Source: a virus | Virus record (IMG/VR): IMGVR_UViG_3300023184_000353 | Coordinates: 1 to 32,485 of that record | DNA: 32,485 bases | Strand: one strand, 5' to 3' | Part shown: one piece after another, positions 12,201-23,055 of the stretch | Layout of the letters: every line of letters starts with the position of its first letter | How positions within the stretch are numbered: the first letter of the stretch is position 1 | Made by a program: the position numbers and the translations under genes | Notes under the pieces: generated by a model | What the model saw: only the letters and a program-made list of their open reading frames with translations | The model's database searches: none | Told to the model about the DNA's origin: nothing

Positions 12201-12259
12201 ATCTTACTCCATATCCATTAGTAGTTTATAGATCCATTTACTTACCGTACTTACTTACT

Positions 12260-12297
12260 GAGAGACTGCGCCCTCAACGGAGTGGGCGCAGTCTCTC
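12260..12297. promoter_or_regulatory. 14-bp perfect inverted repeat between two leftward genes
   Basis: GAGAGACTGCGCCC (12260-12273) and GGGCGCAGTCTCTC (12284-12297) are exact complements separated by ten bases. No T-run follows on either strand. Next to it is a short direct-repeat tract of TACTTAC units (12239-12259). It lies in the 114-bp gap between the 12315-12722 gene and the SSB-like gene. It could be an mRNA processing or stability element, a T-less terminator, or an operator. Confidence 0.7.
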
Positions 12298-12314
12298 ATC
12301 CCTACCATTATCTT

Positions 12315-12722
12315 TTAACAGTTTTGACAACCTGCTTCTATCTTTGGTGTGAACAGCATGCACGCTTTACACAACCGCATACCTTTCACATATATTGGAT
12401 CATCAACCATGTCGAGATGATGGAACCCAAGCGCATGCTCCTCATCTAAACCATCAACCATGCTGTGACCAGCATAAGTATCAGTAGTCATCCGATACTC
12501 ATGCCTCAACCTGCCATCTGCTTGAACAGTCACCGATTCTGTCCAGTCATGACCACTGGGCTGTACGAGATCGCAAAGATATCCGTGCAGCCCATACTGA
12601 CCATCACGCTCCCATGCACTATCGTTTTCATTAGTACCATCATCAACCGACGACTTAAGATATTCGACCAATGTCATAGTGTGGATGGTCATACCTTCCT
12701 CAAAGTTGTCAATCCAGTTCAT
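12315..12722 (-). CDS. Hypothetical protein with C-terminal zinc-binding motif
   Basis: 135 residues. The first gene of the leftward operon, preceded by GGAAGGTG. Many His, Asp and Trp occur in the middle (YGLHGYLCDLVQPSGHDW). The C-terminus has CKACMLFTPKIEAGCQNC, a four-Cys set that would bind zinc. As the first early gene next to the control region it may be a regulator or host-takeover factor; that is position-based inference. No family recognised. Confidence 0.6.
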   Translation of the reverse strand: MNWIDNFEEGMTIHTMTLVEYLKSSVDDGTNENDSAWERDGQYGLHGYLCDLVQPSGHDWTESVTVQADGRLRHEYRMTTDTYAGHSMVDGLDEEHALGFHHLDMVDDPIYVKGMRLCKACMLFTPKIEAGCQNC

Positions 12723-12760
12723 GTTGCACCTTCCTTGTTTGTATCTTTTCAGTCCGCGAT

Positions 12761-12981
12761 CTACGGAACTGCACGCTTTGTTTTGTTGTCAAGGGCTGAC
12801 CCTTTTGGGGGTCAGCATGCTAGGAACGGGTATTTCAGATAGTCATAATTTCGGACTGTGATTTGTCGCACACCCGTTTTTGGTGTGGGGCAAATCATGG
12901 TTCGGACTATCTGAAATAAATAAGGAGCGCTCTGCGCTCCCCGTTCCGTACCCTTGACAACGAAACAGTGGAGTTCCGTAG
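12761..12981 (+). ncRNA. Structured RNA domain 1 (multibranched)
   Basis: Nested pairings: CTACGGAACT 12761-12770 with 12972-12981; GTTGTCAAGGG 12785-12795 with 12951-12961 (extended by a few more pairs); hairpin CTGACCC/GGGTCAG 12796-12815; GGAACGGG 12823-12830 with 12940-12947; TATTTCAGATAGTC 12831-12844 with 12905-12918 (14 bp exact); 12855-12865 with 12891-12901; CACACC/GGTGTG 12869-12887; GGAGCGC/GCGCTCC 12924-12940. Where pairs are not Watson-Crick (12857/12899, 12858/12898, 12784/12962) they are G-T on the + strand and would be A-C on the other, so the RNA is read rightward. No credible protein frame covers it. Confidence 0.75.
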
Positions 12982-12992
12982 TAGTAGATAAC

Positions 12993-13207
12993 CTGCCGTC
13001 TGACAGATGCGAACGCGCTCGTGGTGTGTCAAGCCATCTCACGAATGTGAGATAAGGCTGCTCCTGACACGCCCGATAGCGCGGGAGCATGGTTCCCCTG
13101 AAGGCAAGTCGAGTATGCGCGAGGCGCTAGACTCGCCATACCTCGCAGGCGAGGCGTTAGACTCGCCAGCCTTCGGGCAGGAACCCCTGTCAGACAGTAA
13201 CCGGCAG
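12993..13207 (+). ncRNA. Structured RNA domain 2 (pseudoknotted, GC-rich)
   Basis: Outer helices CTGCCG 12993-12998 with 13202-13207 and TCTGACAG 12999-13006 with 13187-13194. Inside: CGCGCT 13014-13019 with 13078-13083; GGTGTGTCA 13023-13031 with 13065-13073 (one G-T pair, valid only on +); GCC/GGC plus ATCTCAC/GTGAGAT 13033-13058 with a GAAT loop; TGCTCC 13059-13064 with GGAGCA 13084-13089, which crosses the previous helix as a pseudoknot; GGTTCC 13091-13096 with 13180-13185; a GCC-TTCG-GGC hairpin 13169-13178. GC is 75 of 120 at 13081-13200, far above the surrounding genes. Together with domain 1 it may be one long RNA. Confidence 0.75.
13119..13167 (+). repeat. Tandem 19-nt hairpin repeat inside RNA domain 2
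   Basis: GCGAGGCGCTAGACTCGCC at 13119-13137 recurs at 13149-13167 with 18 of 19 identical, period 30. Each copy can fold by itself (GCGAG/CTCGC and GGCGAG/CTCGCC), and the first copy can also pair with CCTCGC at 13141-13146, so alternative folds compete. Confidence 0.8.
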
Positions 13208-13250
13208 ACATAAAAAAAGTTTATAGTCACTAACAAACTAACTACCCCTC

Positions 13251-13319
13251 CAGACAGCCAAGCAGACAGATCTCTACTGCACCTCAGTAGGTATGTCTGT
13301 CAGCATGGCTGACAGTCTG
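13251..13319 (+). ncRNA. Structured RNA domain 3 (stem-loop cluster)
   Basis: CAGACA 13263-13268 with 13294-13299 encloses CTACTG/CAGTAG 13274-13290 with a five-base loop. GTCAGC-ATG-GCTGAC follows at 13299-13313. An outer pairing of CAGAC and AGCC (13251-13259) with GGCT and GTCTG (13307-13319) competes with it. Probably a continuation of the same transcript as domains 1 and 2; 13208-13250 between them is AT-rich and looks unpaired. Confidence 0.55.
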
Positions 13320-13361
13320 TTCTGACAGTCTTTGACCCTAGGTATGTTAACGGACACGCTA

Positions 13362-13388
13362 ATGTATACATGTATCTCTGTCTATAAT
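13362..13388 (+). promoter_or_regulatory. Candidate rightward promoter with palindrome at -35
   Basis: TATAAT at 13383-13388 is a perfect -10 box. The expected -35 position has no TTGACA; instead it carries the exact palindrome ATGTATACAT (13362-13371), overlapping a second, TACATGTA. This arrangement suits an activated or repressed promoter for the late operon that starts at the terminase. Confidence 0.5.
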
Positions 13389-13394
13389 TATTTG

Positions 13395-13418
13395 GGGGTA
13401 TAGTGACTGGGGTATAGT
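13395..13418 (+). repeat. Tandem GGGGTATAGT elements
   Basis: Two exact 10-nt copies (13395-13404 and 13409-13418) with a period of 14. Each contains GGGTAT, the -10 word used by SigB/SigF-type actinobacterial sigma factors, though no GTTT lies at the proper distance. They could be targets of the phage sigma-like factor or of another DNA-binding protein. Confidence 0.5.
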
Positions 13419-13444
13419 TTGTCCTATTTTAATATATTCTGTTT

Positions 13445-13460
13445 TGTGATCTGTATCACT
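13445..13460. promoter_or_regulatory. CRP/GlxR-like operator half-palindrome
   Basis: TGTGA-TCTGTA-TCACT matches the CRP-family consensus TGTGA-N6-TCACA at nine of ten fixed positions. Actinobacteria use GlxR-type CRP proteins with such sites. It is downstream of the candidate TATAAT box and upstream of the terminase. A chance match in AT-rich DNA is possible. Confidence 0.35.
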
Positions 13461-13515
13461 TTTTGTTCGTTTTAGGTGTTTGAACGGATTAATATAGATG
13501 TAGGGTTGTTTTTGT

Positions 13516-13545
13516 AAGCAAGCCTTTTAGAGTCTTGCTTTTATA
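13516..13545 (+). terminator. Weak terminator-like hairpin before the terminase
   Basis: AAGCAAG (13516-13522) pairs with CTTGCTT (13534-13540), followed by TTATAT. A 7-bp stem with a short T-tract is weak. If real it would end an RNA of about 800 nt that began upstream of 12761, keeping the structured RNA separate from the terminase message. Confidence 0.4.
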
Positions 13546-13602
13546 TCTGTGACAGTCTGTTCTGTATATAGGATGGGTAAGTTCTGTCCTAAGGGGGTCA
13601 CG

Positions 13603-15489
13603 ATGGGTTTTAAGTCTGGCGGGGATCACCATTTGGTGAAATCTGTGGCGGATGCTAAGGCTTCTGTTTTGGCTCATGTGGCTGCTGGTACTTCGGTGCA
13701 TGCGGCTATGGTGGCTGCTGGTAAGAAGCCGGATACAGTGCGTCAATGGTTGGTGAGGGATCCTCAGTTTGCTGCTGATTTGGCTGCGGCAAAGGAGTTG
13801 GGTGAGAAGCAATCTTTTGATGCTATGGGTGTGGAAAAGGATTCTATTCCTTTTAAGGACTTCAGTAAAGCCTTTTTGGATCAAACGGTCTTTCCGCATC
13901 ATCAGGATTGGATTGATCTGTTAGAGGGCAGGGAACCTTCTTGGGTTCATCCTTCTATGATATATGAGCCTGGGGAACGGTCACGGTTGTTGGTTAATGT
14001 TCCTCCAGAACATGCCAAGTCTACGGTGATTACGGTTAACTATTCTACTTACCGCATCGCCCTTGATCCCAATGTTCGTATCATTGTGGTGTCGAAGACT
14101 TTGGTGAAAGCACGCGAGTTCGTGTATGCCATTAAGCAACGGTTGTCCCATCCCCGCTGGCTCAAACTGCAGACCGCATATGGTCCTGAGGGCGGGTGGA
14201 AAGAGGACGCTGATACTTGGCGCACCGATACAGTATACCTCGGCGGCGATGCGCGTAATTCTTCAGAGAAAGACCCTACCCTCCAAGCACTCGGCATGGG
14301 TGGACAGATCTATGGTGCTCGTGCTGACCTCATTATCTTGGATGACGTTATCACTACTGCTAATGCTCATGAGTGGGAAAAGCAATTAGATTGGTTACAG
14401 AAAGAAGTTATTACCCGTTTAGGTAAAAACGGTAAACTGTTAGTGGTAGGGACACGCATTGCAGCAAATGACCTTTACAAAGAACTCAGAAACCCTAAAC
14501 ACTGGTCTGGTGGTAAAACTCCTTTCACTTATATGGGCATGCCTGCGGTATTGGAGTATGCGGAAAAACCGCAAGACTGGGTTACTTTATGGAAAGAGTC
14601 GGACGTACCGTGGGATGGGGATGATACTACTCCTCAGGAAAACGGCTTCTTCCCCAAATGGGATGGGCAAACCCTATTCAAAAGACGAAGCGAAGTAACC
14701 CCTTCCACTTGGGCGCTAGTCTACCAGCAAGAAGATATACAAGAAGATTCTATATTTCCACCTGCTTTAGTTAATGGTTCAACTAACAGTATGCGCCGTA
14801 AAGGTCCACTTAAGTCTGGCGCGGTAGGTCATCCTCAACACGTTGAGGGTTACACCATTATTGGTTTTGATCCATCCATGTCAGGACATGCTGCTTTTGT
14901 AGCATTAACATACAATCGAGCAGACGGTAAACTATACGTCCTTGATTGTGTTAACATGGCTGAACCTACTCCACAAAAAATTCGTGCCATGATGGAAGAC
15001 ATGGTGACACGATACAATCCACAAGAATTTCGTATTGAAATCAACGCCCATCAGAAAGCATACTCTTTAGATGAAGATCTACGAAACTGGTTTGCTGCAC
15101 GCGGCGTACGGCTTGACGCTCACTTTACAGGCAAAAACAAATGGGACACCTCATTCGGTATTGCCTCTATGTCTATGCTCTTTGGAACCATACGGGAAGA
15201 AAAGTTTCAAAAGAACAACCTTATTGAACTTCCTTCAAGTGAAGGATCGGAAGGCATTAAAGCATTAACACAACAACTACTTACCTGGAAACCCGAAACA
15301 AAAGGTAAAACAGACTGTGTAATGGCATTATGGTTTGCTGTCATTAGGGCAAGAGAAATGATGCAACAGTCATCTAACGCTGCCAAGTTTGTTTATAACC
15401 GTTGGTCAACTCAAGCGCAGACAGATCGTAGGGTTGCAATCAATCTTGATGAAGCCTTTTCTGATCAATGGAATGAAATTTACCGATAA
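13603..15489 (+). CDS. terL: Terminase large subunit with TerS-like N-terminal domain
   Basis: 628 residues from ATG 13603, chosen because AAGGGGG lies six bases upstream; in-frame starts at 13549 and 13573 lack this. Residues about 15-65 (KASVLAHVAAGTSVHAAMVA and TVRQWLVRDPQFAADL) are a helix-turn-helix like small terminases. The packaging ATPase follows: Walker A PPEHAKST (134-141), Walker B LIILDD (243-248), coupling motif VVGTR (281-285). The RNase H-fold nuclease has D423 in IIGFDPS, E479 in RIEINA and D571 in KTDCVMAL. It cuts concatemers and drives DNA into the prohead through the portal. No separate small terminase gene is visible, so the N-terminal domain may supply DNA recognition. 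Confidence 0.9.
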   Translation: MGFKSGGDHHLVKSVADAKASVLAHVAAGTSVHAAMVAAGKKPDTVRQWLVRDPQFAADLAAAKELGEKQSFDAMGVEKDSIPFKDFSKAFLDQTVFPHHQDWIDLLEGREPSWVHPSMIYEPGERSRLLVNVPPEHAKSTVITVNYSTYRIALDPNVRIIVVSKTLVKAREFVYAIKQRLSHPRWLKLQTAYGPEGGWKEDADTWRTDTVYLGGDARNSSEKDPTLQALGMGGQIYGARADLIILDDVITTANAHEWEKQLDWLQKEVITRLGKNGKLLVVGTRIAANDLYKELRNPKHWSGGKTPFTYMGMPAVLEYAEKPQDWVTLWKESDVPWDGDDTTPQENGFFPKWDGQTLFKRRSEVTPSTWALVYQQEDIQEDSIFPPALVNGSTNSMRRKGPLKSGAVGHPQHVEGYTIIGFDPSMSGHAAFVALTYNRADGKLYVLDCVNMAEPTPQKIRAMMEDMVTRYNPQEFRIEINAHQKAYSLDEDLRNWFAARGVRLDAHFTGKNKWDTSFGIASMSMLFGTIREEKFQKNNLIELPSSEGSEGIKALTQQLLTWKPETKGKTDCVMALWFAVIRAREMMQQSSNAAKFVYNRWSTQAQTDRRVAINLDEAFSDQWNEIYR

Positions 15490-17518: not shown

Positions 17519-17944
17519 ATGGCATCACAACAAGGTGGATATCAACAACCTAATAATCCAGCACCAGTTTCGGGACCTGGTGCTTTATCTCAACGTACTG
17601 ATGGTGGGGCAACTGAAGGTATGACTCAACCTCAACAATCTTATACTGGTGGTGCTTATGGATTTAATAAGTCTATGGCTGAGCAACAAAGTGGTGCTCC
17701 TTTAGCCGGTAATCCTGTACCTCAAATGTCTACAGCCATACCACTTAATGCTCCTACTCAATTTCCTGATCGTCCTATTACTCATGGTATTGATATGGGT
17801 GCTGGTGCTGGTTCTGAAGCAATGTATGGAATGAGCAATTACACTCCATCTTTTATTGATACTATTAAACAACTTACTCAGTTTGATCCTTCAGGTGAAG
17901 CAGAATTGATTTATAGATCTATTCAAGATAGTGGTCTTGGATAA
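17519..17944 (+). CDS. Low-complexity virion-associated protein
   Basis: 141 residues from ATG 17519 (MASQQGGYQQPNNPAPVSGP); an ATG at 17507 with GAAGAAG upstream is an alternative. The first 110 residues are Gln/Gly/Pro/Asn-rich and likely disordered; the last 30 (FIDTIKQLTQFDPSGEAEL) are helical. TAATG overlaps the following gene by 1 nt. Possibly a chaperone or small partner of the giant protein downstream. Function unknown. Confidence 0.55.
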   Translation: MASQQGGYQQPNNPAPVSGPGALSQRTDGGATEGMTQPQQSYTGGAYGFNKSMAEQQSGAPLAGNPVPQMSTAIPLNAPTQFPDRPITHGIDMGAGAGSEAMYGMSNYTPSFIDTIKQLTQFDPSGEAELIYRSIQDSGLG

Positions 17945-20900
17945 TGCAAATCCTGAACCCAGTTGTTGCTGAGGTAAGTCCTAATATTTATGCTGCTGCT
18001 CAGCAAGCCGGTCTTGATTCAACTGGATTAAACCAAGTTGAACAGATGAGTTTTGCTATTAAAAAGCATCGTGAGTTAAATAAACTTAATCCTGATATTG
18101 CTCGTAGTGAATTTGATAAACTTGATTCTCGTATTAAAGATGGAATGAAATTTCTTTTTAAAGATGCGTCTTATTTAACACCTCCTCCTGATGCTGGAAA
18201 TAAAGTATGGGGTGCCATTAAGGCTGTTGGCAAAGTTATTGCTAGTCCTCTTATTGGTTTGTTTTCTTTAGCACATGATTATAATCGTATTATTAATTCA
18301 CCATATCTTGCTATCCGTCAATCTCAAGAAACTGGTCAATCTTTTTTTAGTAAAAAAGTTTGGTCTGCTGCTTGGAATGGCAAAGAAATTTATGACACAC
18401 AGGCTCTTAAAGAAGCAACCTCTATGTTTGGAAACGAAGACGTTGCTGTAGCCAGAGGTCTTTTGGGTGGTAAAACTCCTGGTGAAATAATTCAAGAATA
18501 CGGCAAGGTAGATAATAAAATACTTGCTTCTATTACTAAAGCATTTGATAAGCCTAATGATTTTCGTCAAGTTTTAGATGGTGTTAAATACGCTCAAGTA
18601 AGTCCTGGTCGTGATATTGCACGCATGATGGATGACAAGCCACCGGCTAGTGGTGGTTTGCATGGAGATTACATTGATGGTACAACTAAAAATGTTTCTG
18701 GTGTACTAGATTTTGTTTATCAGTTAGCAATTGATCCTTTAACTTGGCTTACTGGTGGTGGTAGTAAAGCATTTACTATAGGTGAAAGGCTTTCTAAAAC
18801 TATTACTGAAGCAGCCAATGCTGGTGATCTTGCTGGTGGTGTTGCCAAGGTTATGCAAAATCGTCGCGTTAATCAATTGTGGGAAAATGAACTTGGTCCT
18901 GCTATCAAAAATTATTCTGATGCAACAACTACTGCAGAAAAAACTGTTGCTTATGATGAGATTGCTAGACAATTTCCTGGGTATCGTAATCGTGAAGTTA
19001 TTGATACTCTTTCGCGTGGCAAAGTTCATGATGCTAAATCTGCTAAAAACTTTTTTGAACAAGCACAAAATGTACACCTTATGCTATCGGGTCGTGTTGA
19101 TGGTGTAACATATTATCGCAATGGTGTTGCTGTTGCTAAGCGTTCACGTAACATGTCTGATGGTATGCTTGTTGCTTTAGATAGTATTTTTAATCCTACT
19201 ACTTCTAAAACTGTTGGTAGATTAAATATTCAAGGACGTAGCATTGCTGAACTTGAAGCCAAGGGTAATGATATTCATGATGTTCTTTTAAAGGCTGGTC
19301 AATCACTTGATGATCTTGCTTCTAATCCAGTAATTCTGGGTATTCAAAAAGAAATTAAAGGTCTTAAAAAGTTAGGTCAATTGGCTGCACGTAGTCCTGC
19401 TGGTCTTGAAATTAAGATTGGTGAGAATGCTATTGAGACTGCACAGAATTTTAATGTTGTTGCTCGTCAACTTTTGCCTCGTGATCTTGCTAATTTTATG
19501 ACAACAAAGTTTCTTGAATCTAAGGCTGATGAACAGGCTGTTATTGTTCGTAATCTTTATGCTTCTATTATGATGAAGCATGGTTTGAATGGTCATCCTG
19601 AGGGTGAAAAACTTATTGAAAGTGTTTTGCGAGATAAGTTTGGTGATAAGGTAGGTTTTACTACTGTATCTAAAACTGAAATTAATGCTGAACATGCTAA
19701 ATTTATGGACCCTAATAGCATTAAATTAGAAAACAATGTTCCTATTCTTAATAGTGATAATCCTATTCAAATTTGGCAGTCAACTCATGCTATAGGTTCT
19801 TTGCCTTATGCTGAAATTGCTAAGGTTGCTTATCAAATTAAATCTAAAAAGAACATTATGAATGCTATGGGTGGTGCTACTAGTAGCGATTTTGCCCGTA
19901 AAATGGTTGATGCTTGGTCTGTTCTTACTTTGTTTCCTCGTCTTGGTATTCGTAGTGCTATTGACGAAGGTTTAATGTTTATTTTAACTGCACCTGGTAA
20001 AGATCTACTTGATTACGCTCTTCGTAAGGGTCATCGTTTAGGTAAAGTATCTACTGCTTTTACTGGTTCTAAAGAATCAACTGGTCCTATTAAAGCAGCA
20101 TTAAGTAAAATGCTTGGTGGTAATACTTATGATGCTATTTCTTCTGAAAAACGTAAAGAAATTATTGAAGCACTTGCTACAAGTAAAGGTATTAATCCTG
20201 AAGATTTAAGTAATATGGAAAAGCGTTTGGCTATTGGGGAACATGCTGAAAAATTATTTAGCAAAATGCTTGATGATGAAAGCATGGGATATTTGCTTCA
20301 AGGATTAGTTCATTCACCTGATATGTTAACTTCTGTTGCACAATCTCTTGTGGCTCGTAGTGGTTTGTCTGGTAATTTTGGTGAAGACATTGTTGCTGCA
20401 ATGATTACTCCAAGTAATCTTGATAAGGCTTTGGCTGATTTAGGTCTTAAAATGTCACCTGGAACTCAAACAGTATCAAGTGCAAGACTTAATGATATGC
20501 AATTAAGTATTGTACATTTTGAGCGGTTTGTTAAAACTTTTGGTGGTGCAACTAGAAAATATGGTCAATATGTTTATGATCCTACTGAAGTATTTTTAAG
20601 AAACAACGCTCTTAAACCTGGACAAAATTCTAATATAGTTGTTAATGGAAAACCTCAAGAATGGTTTGAGCGTGCTATTGATGAACTTGCTGGTGCTGCT
20701 GGTGTTCGTTGGGATGATCGTCTTAATAAATATGTAGTCTTTGACCAAAAGGCTGTTGATGCTTTTAAAGTAATGTCTGGTCGCAGTCAAGAGTTATTAC
20801 AACAAGGTGCTGATGATGTTGCTATCGTACGTGATCAAGTAGGTCGTCAACTTGTTGATATGTATAATACTTTTCATGGTGGTGCAAATAATTATAATCA

Positions 20901-23055
20901 AGCATTAATGGATATTGTTCGTTCAAATCATAATAATATTACTGCTGTTACTAATGTAAGCAAGCCCTGGACAAAGGCTGTTTCTCGTATTGGTATAGAT
21001 GATTTTCGTACTGCAACAATAAACCATCGTATTAATGGTGATGTTTCAACTAACATTGATCTTGATATACTTACTGACATTCCTTCTGTATGGAAAAAGT
21101 ATGGCAATAAAATGATGGAATCAATGGACCGTCAAGTAAATGCTATTTTCCGTCAGCCTGCAGTAATGGTTACTTATACTTCTTTGCGTAAAAAATATGC
21201 TGGTATTGAACGACAGTATCATAAAGATATGGTTGCTGAACTTACTGCAAAAAATGTAGCAGCCAAGGGAAGTGCTAAGAAATCCGTTTCTGAAATTGAA
21301 GAGATAGCAAAGTCTTTTACAGAAAAACGTTTTACAGAAATCTTAACCCGTGAAGCAGCAGATCATGTGCTTAAGTATGCTGATAACCCTGCAATACGAA
21401 GCAACTTTGCTTTTAGTTCACGTACTCTTGGACGTTACTATCGGGCTACTGAAGATTTTCAACGCCGTATCTTTCGTATGAAAGAAGTACCATTGCGTGT
21501 ACTTTATCGTATGAGGTTAGCACACTTAGGTTTAGATGCTAGTGGTGCTGTTTATAAAGATATTAATGGTGAACAGTATGTTATTATGCCTACTGATAGT
21601 ATTATCTTTAAGGCTACTGATGCTACTATTCGTAAGTTAACTGGCAACTCTGGCTATAGCCAACCTATGTTTAATGATTTTACTTTTAAATTGCGTATGG
21701 TTAACCCATCATTTTCTCAAGATGCTGGTTTGCCCACTTTGTCTGGTCCTGTTGCTGGTCTTGGTGTAGTTGCTATTCAAAGCATTCTTGGTAATGTTAA
21801 TAAGATTCCAATCTTTGGTGGGCTACTTGATCAACCTGGTAAAAAGGCTGCACAAGTTGTTGATAGTTTTGCTTTAGGTAGTATTGGTGACAATATTGAT
21901 GTGACTAAGGCTATTGTTCCTGCTAGTTTGCAAAAGTTGTGGGCAATAATTGACCCCACAGAGAAGAGTCGTCAAGAAGTTACTGCTGCACAGCAGGCTA
22001 TGGCTTATAATGCTGCTCATGGAACTTTCCTTAAGGCTGATGCTAGTGAAGAAGACAAGGCTAAGTATCTTAAGAACATTAGAATTAGCGCACATAACAT
22101 TTTGGCTATGCGTAACTTCCTTGGTTTAATTTCACCTGTTTCACCTAGCATGCAGGAAGGTGTTGACCTTCCAGGTTATCTACGTAAGGTAGGTATTACT
22201 GGTTTGCGTCCTGAGTTCTTTGATATTCTTCAAGGTATTGCTAAAAACAATGCCAAGTATGGTGATGTTCAAGATCCTTATGAGTTGGCTTTGGCTACTT
22301 TTATTGGTAAGAACCCTAATAAGTTAGTGTATACGGTTGCTCGTACTGATAAGCAAACACGGGTTATTGTTCAGAATACTACTGAGTTACAGAATTGGGC
22401 TATTGAGAATAAGTCTTTGATCAATACTTATGGTGAGGCTGCTTATATTTTTGCTCCTCATGTGGGTAAGTTTAATGCTTCTTCTTATGCTTGGCTTGAG
22501 GCGGCTGGTCTTGTTAAGAGTGTTTCTTTAGAAAACTATTATACTAATTTGCTTGTTGTTCAAGATAAACAAGCATATTATAATGTGGCTCGTTTAGAAA
22601 AAGAAGCATTGTCTAATACTTCTGATCCTGAATTACGTGCTCAGATCATTAAAGATAGTACTGCTACTCGTGATAATTTAAAGGTTTCTAATCCTTTGTT
22701 GTCTAAGGCTTTGATTGGTGATGGTAATCAGATTGGTGCAGAAAGTAAGTTGCTTGCTTCTGTTGAGCAAATTGTTTCTAATCCTAATACTTCTATTGAT
22801 CCTGGTACTCGTCAGAGAATGAATCTTGCTATTAAAATAATTAAAGATTTTATGTTGTTTGCTTCTGATCCCAGTATGAAAGATGTTGTTAATTTTGCTG
22901 ATTTAAAACGTGATCGTAAAGCACAAGTGGAGGCTAATTTGCGTGACCTTATGGCGGGTGACTTGTATGTTACTGAGGCTAATCGCGCTATCTTTAGTTC
23001 TATTCTTGATTTCTATTCTCGTGACAGTTATGTTGCTTTGAAGAAGGGTTCTTAA
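17944..23055 (+). CDS. Giant (1703-residue) putative internal virion protein
   Basis: The largest gene of the window, in late order between portal and scaffold. It starts with a 1-nt TAATG overlap. Sequence is mostly helical with amphipathic segments. A hydrophobic stretch near residues 83-110 (VWGAIKAVGKVIASPLIGLF) and another around 655-680 (LGIRSAIDEGLMFILTAPGK) could insert in membranes. No enzymatic motif is obvious to me. Proteins of this size lying between portal and capsid in short-tailed phages are often ejected with the DNA. The position and the membrane-active segments suit an ejection or internal core protein. A tape measure protein is less likely at this map position. Confidence 0.6.
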   Translation: MQILNPVVAEVSPNIYAAAQQAGLDSTGLNQVEQMSFAIKKHRELNKLNPDIARSEFDKLDSRIKDGMKFLFKDASYLTPPPDAGNKVWGAIKAVGKVIASPLIGLFSLAHDYNRIINSPYLAIRQSQETGQSFFSKKVWSAAWNGKEIYDTQALKEATSMFGNEDVAVARGLLGGKTPGEIIQEYGKVDNKILASITKAFDKPNDFRQVLDGVKYAQVSPGRDIARMMDDKPPASGGLHGDYIDGTTKNVSGVLDFVYQLAIDPLTWLTGGGSKAFTIGERLSKTITEAANAGDLAGGVAKVMQNRRVNQLWENELGPAIKNYSDATTTAEKTVAYDEIARQFPGYRNREVIDTLSRGKVHDAKSAKNFFEQAQNVHLMLSGRVDGVTYYRNGVAVAKRSRNMSDGMLVALDSIFNPTTSKTVGRLNIQGRSIAELEAKGNDIHDVLLKAGQSLDDLASNPVILGIQKEIKGLKKLGQLAARSPAGLEIKIGENAIETAQNFNVVARQLLPRDLANFMTTKFLESKADEQAVIVRNLYASIMMKHGLNGHPEGEKLIESVLRDKFGDKVGFTTVSKTEINAEHAKFMDPNSIKLENNVPILNSDNPIQIWQSTHAIGSLPYAEIAKVAYQIKSKKNIMNAMGGATSSDFARKMVDAWSVLTLFPRLGIRSAIDEGLMFILTAPGKDLLDYALRKGHRLGKVSTAFTGSKESTGPIKAALSKMLGGNTYDAISSEKRKEIIEALATSKGINPEDLSNMEKRLAIGEHAEKLFSKMLDDESMGYLLQGLVHSPDMLTSVAQSLVARSGLSGNFGEDIVAAMITPSNLDKALADLGLKMSPGTQTVSSARLNDMQLSIVHFERFVKTFGGATRKYGQYVYDPTEVFLRNNALKPGQNSNIVVNGKPQEWFERAIDELAGAAGVRWDDRLNKYVVFDQKAVDAFKVMSGRSQELLQQGADDVAIVRDQVGRQLVDMYNTFHGGANNYNQALMDIVRSNHNNITAVTNVSKPWTKAVSRIGIDDFRTATINHRINGDVSTNIDLDILTDIPSVWKKYGNKMMESMDRQVNAIFRQPAVMVTYTSLRKKYAGIERQYHKDMVAELTAKNVAAKGSAKKSVSEIEEIAKSFTEKRFTEILTREAADHVLKYADNPAIRSNFAFSSRTLGRYYRATEDFQRRIFRMKEVPLRVLYRMRLAHLGLDASGAVYKDINGEQYVIMPTDSIIFKATDATIRKLTGNSGYSQPMFNDFTFKLRMVNPSFSQDAGLPTLSGPVAGLGVVAIQSILGNVNKIPIFGGLLDQPGKKAAQVVDSFALGSIGDNIDVTKAIVPASLQKLWAIIDPTEKSRQEVTAAQQAMAYNAAHGTFLKADASEEDKAKYLKNIRISAHNILAMRNFLGLISPVSPSMQEGVDLPGYLRKVGITGLRPEFFDILQGIAKNNAKYGDVQDPYELALATFIGKNPNKLVYTVARTDKQTRVIVQNTTELQNWAIENKSLINTYGEAAYIFAPHVGKFNASSYAWLEAAGLVKSVSLENYYTNLLVVQDKQAYYNVARLEKEALSNTSDPELRAQIIKDSTATRDNLKVSNPLLSKALIGDGNQIGAESKLLASVEQIVSNPNTSIDPGTRQRMNLAIKIIKDFMLFASDPSMKDVVNFADLKRDRKAQVEANLRDLMAGDLYVTEANRAIFSSILDFYSRDSYVALKKGS

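Follow-up and report, generated by a model that had tools for sequence, protein, structure and literature searches.

The leader RNAs of phage late operons (lambda 6S/late leader, HK022 put) are short and conserved and act in cis, and the packaging RNA (pRNA) of phi29 is much shorter than the RNA considered here. The pRNAs are described as variable in sequence and conserved in fold (PMC12670572). In staphylococcal phages, a structured RNA of about 400 nt from the terminase region, the cabRNA, is read by a host defence protein (PMC10686824). The large RNAs GOLLD and ROOL are often found near tRNA islands, GOLLD sometimes carrying a tRNA inside, and have reached cages from unrelated sequences (PMC12286853); the RNA multimers described so far need many specific contacts.

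The window, that is, the whole stretch of 32,485 nucleotides analysed here (IMG/VR record IMGVR_UViG_3300023184_000353), contains a gap of 826 bp without coding sequence (between 12722 and 13549) that separates a 135-aa gene on the - strand from terL on the + strand. A first-pass annotation had placed a large non-coding RNA in this gap and regarded it as possibly a divergent relative of GOLLD or ROOL or a new class of long phage RNA. The first of these assignments finds no support in the searches. With Rfam 15, the part of the window in question is free of matches (E up to 1), and the separate search of the locus (E up to 10) yields only chance matches far under the cutoff; the GOLLD, ROOL, OLE, HEARO and phage pRNA models match at neither setting, and among 16 relatives no model reaches the gathering threshold. 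A miRNA-like hairpin at 12854-12904 was discarded as a chance match (27 bits, the cutoff being 80). According to ARAGORN, neither the window nor any of 45 relatives contains a tRNA.

The terL-slot RNA, as the predicted molecule is called here, thus is GOLLD/ROOL-like in kind, with a length of hundreds of nucleotides, an ornate multibranched structure, a phage origin and no known partner or function, but is not a member of either family: it has no Rfam match and no tRNA neighbourhood, its sequence is unconserved between close phages, and its position is fixed beside terL. With cabRNA it shares a structured character, the terminase region and a similar order of size. However, cabRNA lies inside the terS/terL coding sequence, whereas the present RNA occupies a non-coding slot upstream of terL that shows large turnover; moreover, contact with CBASS is a feature of cabRNA. 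In the literature searched, no structured RNA is described ahead of terL for this lineage. What survives of the proposed new class is narrower, namely an undescribed family within one terL lineage, which the analysis supports.

Predicted fold and flanks of the terL-slot RNA

Folded as a + strand RNA, the segment 12745-13230 has a minimum free energy (MFE) of -259 kcal/mol, compared to a mean of -158 kcal/mol for dinucleotide shuffles (n = 100; z = -15.3; 0 of 100 as low), and this fold is the strongest among all loci compared. The two successive multibranched folds of the first-pass annotation reappear as drawn in the form of domains 1 and 2 (Table 1), nearly all helices of which have pairing probabilities (P) of 0.84-1.00 in the MFE structure, mostly above 0.95, with one isolated pair at 0.70. 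Against mononucleotide shuffles, z is about -16.6 for domain 1 and about -8.4 for domain 2. The third stem cluster, also noticed at first pass, folds with -31.9 kcal/mol (z about -6.6), and the GC-rich patch within the AT-rich phage is confirmed as well (75 of 120 at 13081-13200, the window as a whole having 39% GC). The - strand of the same segment folds too, as inverted-repeat-rich regions do in general, but less stably (-228 kcal/mol, z -12.8), and 10 of the 181 pairs of the MFE structure are G-U on the + strand; the earlier argument that such pairs favour a rightward RNA accordingly holds.

Table 1. Features of the slot between the left gene and terL and of its flanks, in coordinates of the window
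Feature	Position	Strand	Remarks
Left gene	12315..12722	-	135 aa; no family match; slot flank outside the RNA
Domain 1	12761..12981	+	MFE helices P 0.95-1.00
Domain 1, outer helix	12761-12770/12972-12981	+	
Domain 1, 16-bp helix	12779-12794/12952-12967	+	
Domain 1, hairpin	12795-12816	+	
Domain 1, inner stem	12823-12829/12941-12947	+	
Conserved arm module	12826..12924	+	homologous to L012, L029, L082, L033
Domain 1, long arm	12831-12918	+	
Domain 1, further hairpin	12924-12940	+	
Domain 2	12993..13207	+	MFE helices mostly P 0.84-1.00
Domain 2, closing helix	12994-13006/13187-13206	+	
Domain 2, long arm	13007-13090	+	
Domain 2, three-way junction	13091-13185	+	
Hairpin, loop GCGCUAGA	13119..13136	+	loop class GCNYUAGA
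Hairpin, loop GCGUUAGA, second copy of the module	13148..13167	+	direct repeat D1
Third stem cluster	13251..13319	+	within the stretch alignable to relatives; terminator-like site on +
Conserved block, ~43 bp	13465..13507		blastn 82-95% over 30-45 nt, most loci
terL	13549..15489	+	PHROG large subunit E 3.8e-68, small subunit E 1.6e-4; slot flank outside the RNA

A helix crossing the second domain (13059-13064 with 13084-13089) had been proposed in addition. Its letters (TGCTCC and GGAGCA) are indeed complementary, but both arms are already engaged in nested helices (13007-13010/13087-13090, P = 0.98; 13032-13035/13056-13059, P = 0.99), and freeing them costs 8.6 kcal/mol, roughly what the knot would gain, so that this helix is an alternative pairing and not an extra one. 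For ROOL, multiple pseudoknots are predicted; at the present locus the comparison covered this one crossing helix, which competes with nested helices.

No coding signal or protein signature was found in the fold region, and a coding explanation is set aside in view of the open reading frames of the slots, which differ in length and match nothing. A recognisable + strand promoter was not found at the locus. The second hairpin of the third stem cluster (13297-13315) is followed by a weak U-rich tail, a terminator-like site on the + strand that is a possible 3' end of the RNA. The weak terminator annotated further downstream (13516-13545) corresponds to an inverted repeat at 13516-13540 followed by TTTTAT, which stays below the threshold of the terminator scan. 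The RNA would accordingly be a large + strand molecule of ~450-570 nt, extending from ~12755 to 13210 or 13320.

As to the flanks, the left gene has no relatives in IMG/VR. The two left genes are separated at 12259-12298 by an inverted repeat without mismatches (15 bp, loop of 10 nt; TGAGAGACTGCGCCC) that looks like a terminator. On the other side, residues about 33-93 of the terL product give weak PHROG and Pfam matches to small terminase subunits, N-terminal to the large subunit, and the protein is possibly a natural TerS-TerL fusion. Further along the late operon, a 1703-aa protein (17944-23055) has no Pfam match.

Turnover of the slot among terL relatives

Searches with TerL recovered 471 IMG/VR loci, 80 of which were kept as relatives (identity up to 83%). 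Upstream of terL, blastn aligns only 13241-13412 and 13465-13567 to these 80 loci and leaves the big fold unaligned; blastn detects no homologue. The locus has no blastn match in INPHARED, exact patterns from domains 1 and 2 retrieve unrelated contigs or nothing from IMG/VR, and a search for terL in genome_contigs finds none. The RNA of the window itself is without a close homologue in the collections searched. By TerL, the nearest named isolates are Streptomyces phages (43%), which makes an actinobacterial host plausible. The left ends of Streptomyces Beephvirinae were considered as the same element and rejected, being moderately structured with the - strand better, and a shared 10-mer, CAGCCTTCGG, was not counted as homology as it is probably a mere UUCG tetraloop.

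The position of the element is nevertheless constant. Among the 80 relatives, most loci with enough upstream sequence have a strong fold at about -900 to -340 from terL, in the space that separates the divergent left gene from the control block of terL, as in the window. In a large majority of the strongly structured loci, the + strand folds lower relative to its own shuffles than the - strand and contains more G-U pairs, a tally that is no formal test because kin sequences are counted repeatedly and only six shuffles were made per locus. The terL-proximal block taken as a whole yields a weak consensus fold, with + no better than -, and no fold is therefore claimed for it. Within it, the segment 13465-13507 is kept in nearly all terL relatives, RNA-less ones included, and may be a promoter, a cos-like site or another control site. 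The slot of one locus, L048, holds ~200 extra hairpin-rich bases compared to other members, among which a motif similar to GCAGACGCC occurs several times. In many of the terL contigs (loci L006-L084), the sequence upstream of terL stops within ~800 bases, as though assembly broke off in the hypervariable or strongly structured slot.

The extent of turnover was measured on ordered pairs from 36 loci with long flanks, in which terL is at least 93% identical. No alignable sequence is left in 65% of the pairs at -1000 to -700 and in 68% at -700 to -340, compared to 0% at -340 to -30 and in terL itself and at most 11% in segments downstream of terL; in the left arm, the values are 1-39% at -1000 to -4000 and 43% beyond -4000. 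The slot is thus the least alignable stretch nearby. Furthermore, protein genes of the SLOG/YspA or DUF4326 families extend to between -416 and -545 in at least nine relatives; the fold is missing from these loci and the terL-proximal block is kept. Two such genes on the slot side of RNA-less relatives, L022:4058-4462 and L040:233-619, encode a SLOG (YspA-like) or DUF4326 protein. Given that the slot is unalignable between close phages and contains a protein gene instead in some, it very likely is an exchangeable location for accessory genes, the RNA being one of them. Such rapid turnover can also result from relaxed sequence constraint and does not require conflict.

Recurrent modules and covariation

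Despite this turnover, part of domain 1 has homologues among the RNAs that occupy this slot in other phages. The arm at 12852-12904 (ACUGUGA...UCAUGGU, with tandem U-G/G-U pairs) lies at -694 from terL, and matching arms with a span of 43-45 nt are found at -644 to -675 in L012, L029, L082 and L033. The core pattern of the arm occurs seven times on the + strand in 781 kb, in five homologous arms and two unrelated places, and never on the - strand. A covariance model that included the window (R1) matches it for that very reason, and the match is discounted; a second model, R2, was therefore built from L012, L029, L082 and L033 only. Leaving aside the training sequences and their reverse strands, the best match of R2 in 723 kb is the arm module of the window on the + strand (28.7 bits, E = 2.6e-4; E = 1.2e-5 in a search of the window alone), the E-values being rough owing to a short calibration. 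The next untrained match in another phage, at 17.9 bits, falls in the slot region of L046. Pattern search followed by confirmation with the model adds L099/L102 (TerL 72% identical), L111, L137 and L165; other contigs with the letters of the arm have no comparable model score.

Compensatory change is apparent in two alignments. In that of the arm (A1), 94.8% of the cells pair and seven pairs show two-sided change, a result not reached in any of 500 shuffles; in the core of the L041-type subfamily (A3; 13 sequences), 92% of the cells pair, 13 two-sided changes are present (0/500 shuffles), slid partners destroy the pairing, and two G-U pairs are invariant in 13/13. The two-sided changes are the stronger part of this evidence, considering that kinship inflates the shuffle control and that an alignment-derived structure tends to beat its slid versions on cells paired. 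The clear covariation sits in the relatives, specifically the L041-type subfamily, and mostly does not come from the window itself.

Hairpin modules recur among slots with changed stems and conserved G-U pairs. Loops of the class GCNYUAGA on stems of at least four Watson-Crick pairs occur 12 times on the + strand in 46 kb of slots, on seven different stems, and three times in 1.35 Mb elsewhere, a motif that was spotted first and counted later on the same loci; two of these hairpins are in the window. A model of domain 2 alone has four weak non-self matches (E 0.37-9.8), all on the + strand and all in slots, which is suggestive of homology between this domain and other slots.

The large rightward structured non-coding RNA of the first-pass annotation is borne out, as a prediction, by its energy relative to shuffles, by the asymmetry of the strands, by the conservation of G-U pairs, by the covariation seen among relatives and by the independent covariance-model match, and a family of structured + strand RNAs can be postulated with high confidence. 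The computations demonstrate a fold with a preferred strand and no coding signal, the reuse of modules and an extreme turnover of the slot.

Possible roles of the slot RNA

The proposed scenario is that of an RNA gene residing in an exchangeable slot that is bordered by the divergent left genes on one side and by the conserved control block of terL on the other. The RNA would be transcribed during infection, fold into a stable, largely double-stranded particle and act in trans, with selection retaining the fold along with a few loop and G-U motifs and rewarding new sequence. A trans-acting RNA with a variable partner best fits the combination of turnover, exchange with small protein genes and preservation of the fold, and a fold that is kept while new sequence is rewarded suggests a role in contact with a variable host or defence partner and not in a fixed assembly step. 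Contacting such a component, the RNA could be a decoy, sponge or inhibitor of an RNA-binding protein, a nuclease or a sensor. Partners of this kind exist, given that cabRNA, a structured RNA from the terminase region, can be read by host immunity (PMC10686824). A host- or defence-facing function, considered by itself, is accordingly put forward tentatively; the entire chain, from transcription through action in trans to a host or defence target, is put forward with more reserve, and it is doubtful that the slot is a hypervariable cassette of modular RNAs that serve as antagonists or decoys against host defences and are swapped with small protein genes.

Among the alternatives, the RNA might form the 5' portion of the mRNA of terL and, in cis, control transcription or translation of the late operon, through mRNA stability or by antitermination of the kind known from HK022 put and the lambda late leader. 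As late-operon leaders do, it lies on the same strand and immediately precedes terL and the late genes, and in the interval from the fold to terL the terminator scan detected no strong site. Yet the hairpin at 13297-13315 is a candidate terminator, and, unlike the known leaders, the terL-slot RNA is long, exchangeable and sometimes missing: a cis control element should align when terL is at least 93% identical, and at least nine relatives without the fold keep the terL-proximal block. This interpretation appears fairly unlikely.

It is distinctly unlikely that the RNA forms an RNA-only multimer of the GOLLD/ROOL type, without shared ancestry, that is, a cage or homo-oligomer for scaffolding or storage. 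The size, the ornate fold, the phage origin and the lack of a protein partner are alike, and cages have arisen from unrelated sequences in GOLLD and ROOL (PMC12286853), but a requirement for many specific contacts is hard to reconcile with near-complete sequence turnover, and tRNAs are absent nearby in the window and 45 relatives.

The inverted repeats could instead act at the DNA level, as a cos or pac site, a replication origin or a cruciform, with the RNA fold as a by-product. The slot adjoins a gene with small- and large-subunit terminase parts, and Streptomyces phages with related TerL have their left genome end ~640 bp upstream of terL. However, the conserved G-U pairs (the tandem U-G/G-U of the arm and the two that are invariant in 13 sequences) would count as mismatches if the hairpin were DNA and would read A-C on the opposite strand, the folding energy favours the + strand, and the slot is missing or unalignable in close relatives, so this option is improbable. 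Still more improbable is a leftward leader of the divergent left operon that would regulate how the 135-aa gene or its counterparts are translated: the fold stops a short distance from the left gene's start codon, and the first helix of the L041-type family overlaps the ribosome-binding site of that gene, but in most relatives both the energy and the number of G-U pairs speak for +, and on the window R2 scores 15.4 bits for - compared to 28.7 for +. Finally, a packaging RNA that, like phi29 pRNA, acts on the terminase motor is highly improbable, even though it would be a structured phage RNA near packaging functions, here adjacent to terL, with a sequence that varies under a kept fold as that of pRNAs does in the source cited above, because pRNA is shorter, essential and of one conserved architecture whereas the terL-slot RNA is far longer, modular, unmatched by the Rfam pRNA models and missing in relatives with conserved TerL. 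In general, absence or lack of alignment between such close phages disfavours an essential cis site or a part of the packaging machinery.

An accessory RNA acting in trans on a variable partner would have implications for the detection and the evolution of phage RNAs. The large phage RNAs described previously are recognisable through conserved sequence and structure, and their function is unknown; in the terL-slot family the fold persists while most of the sequence is replaced, so sequence-based surveys would miss most members. A single slot with many alleles makes the proposed role directly testable via allele exchange between close relatives. If the RNA indeed faces the host, it would represent a structured RNA that evolves like an anti-defence gene.
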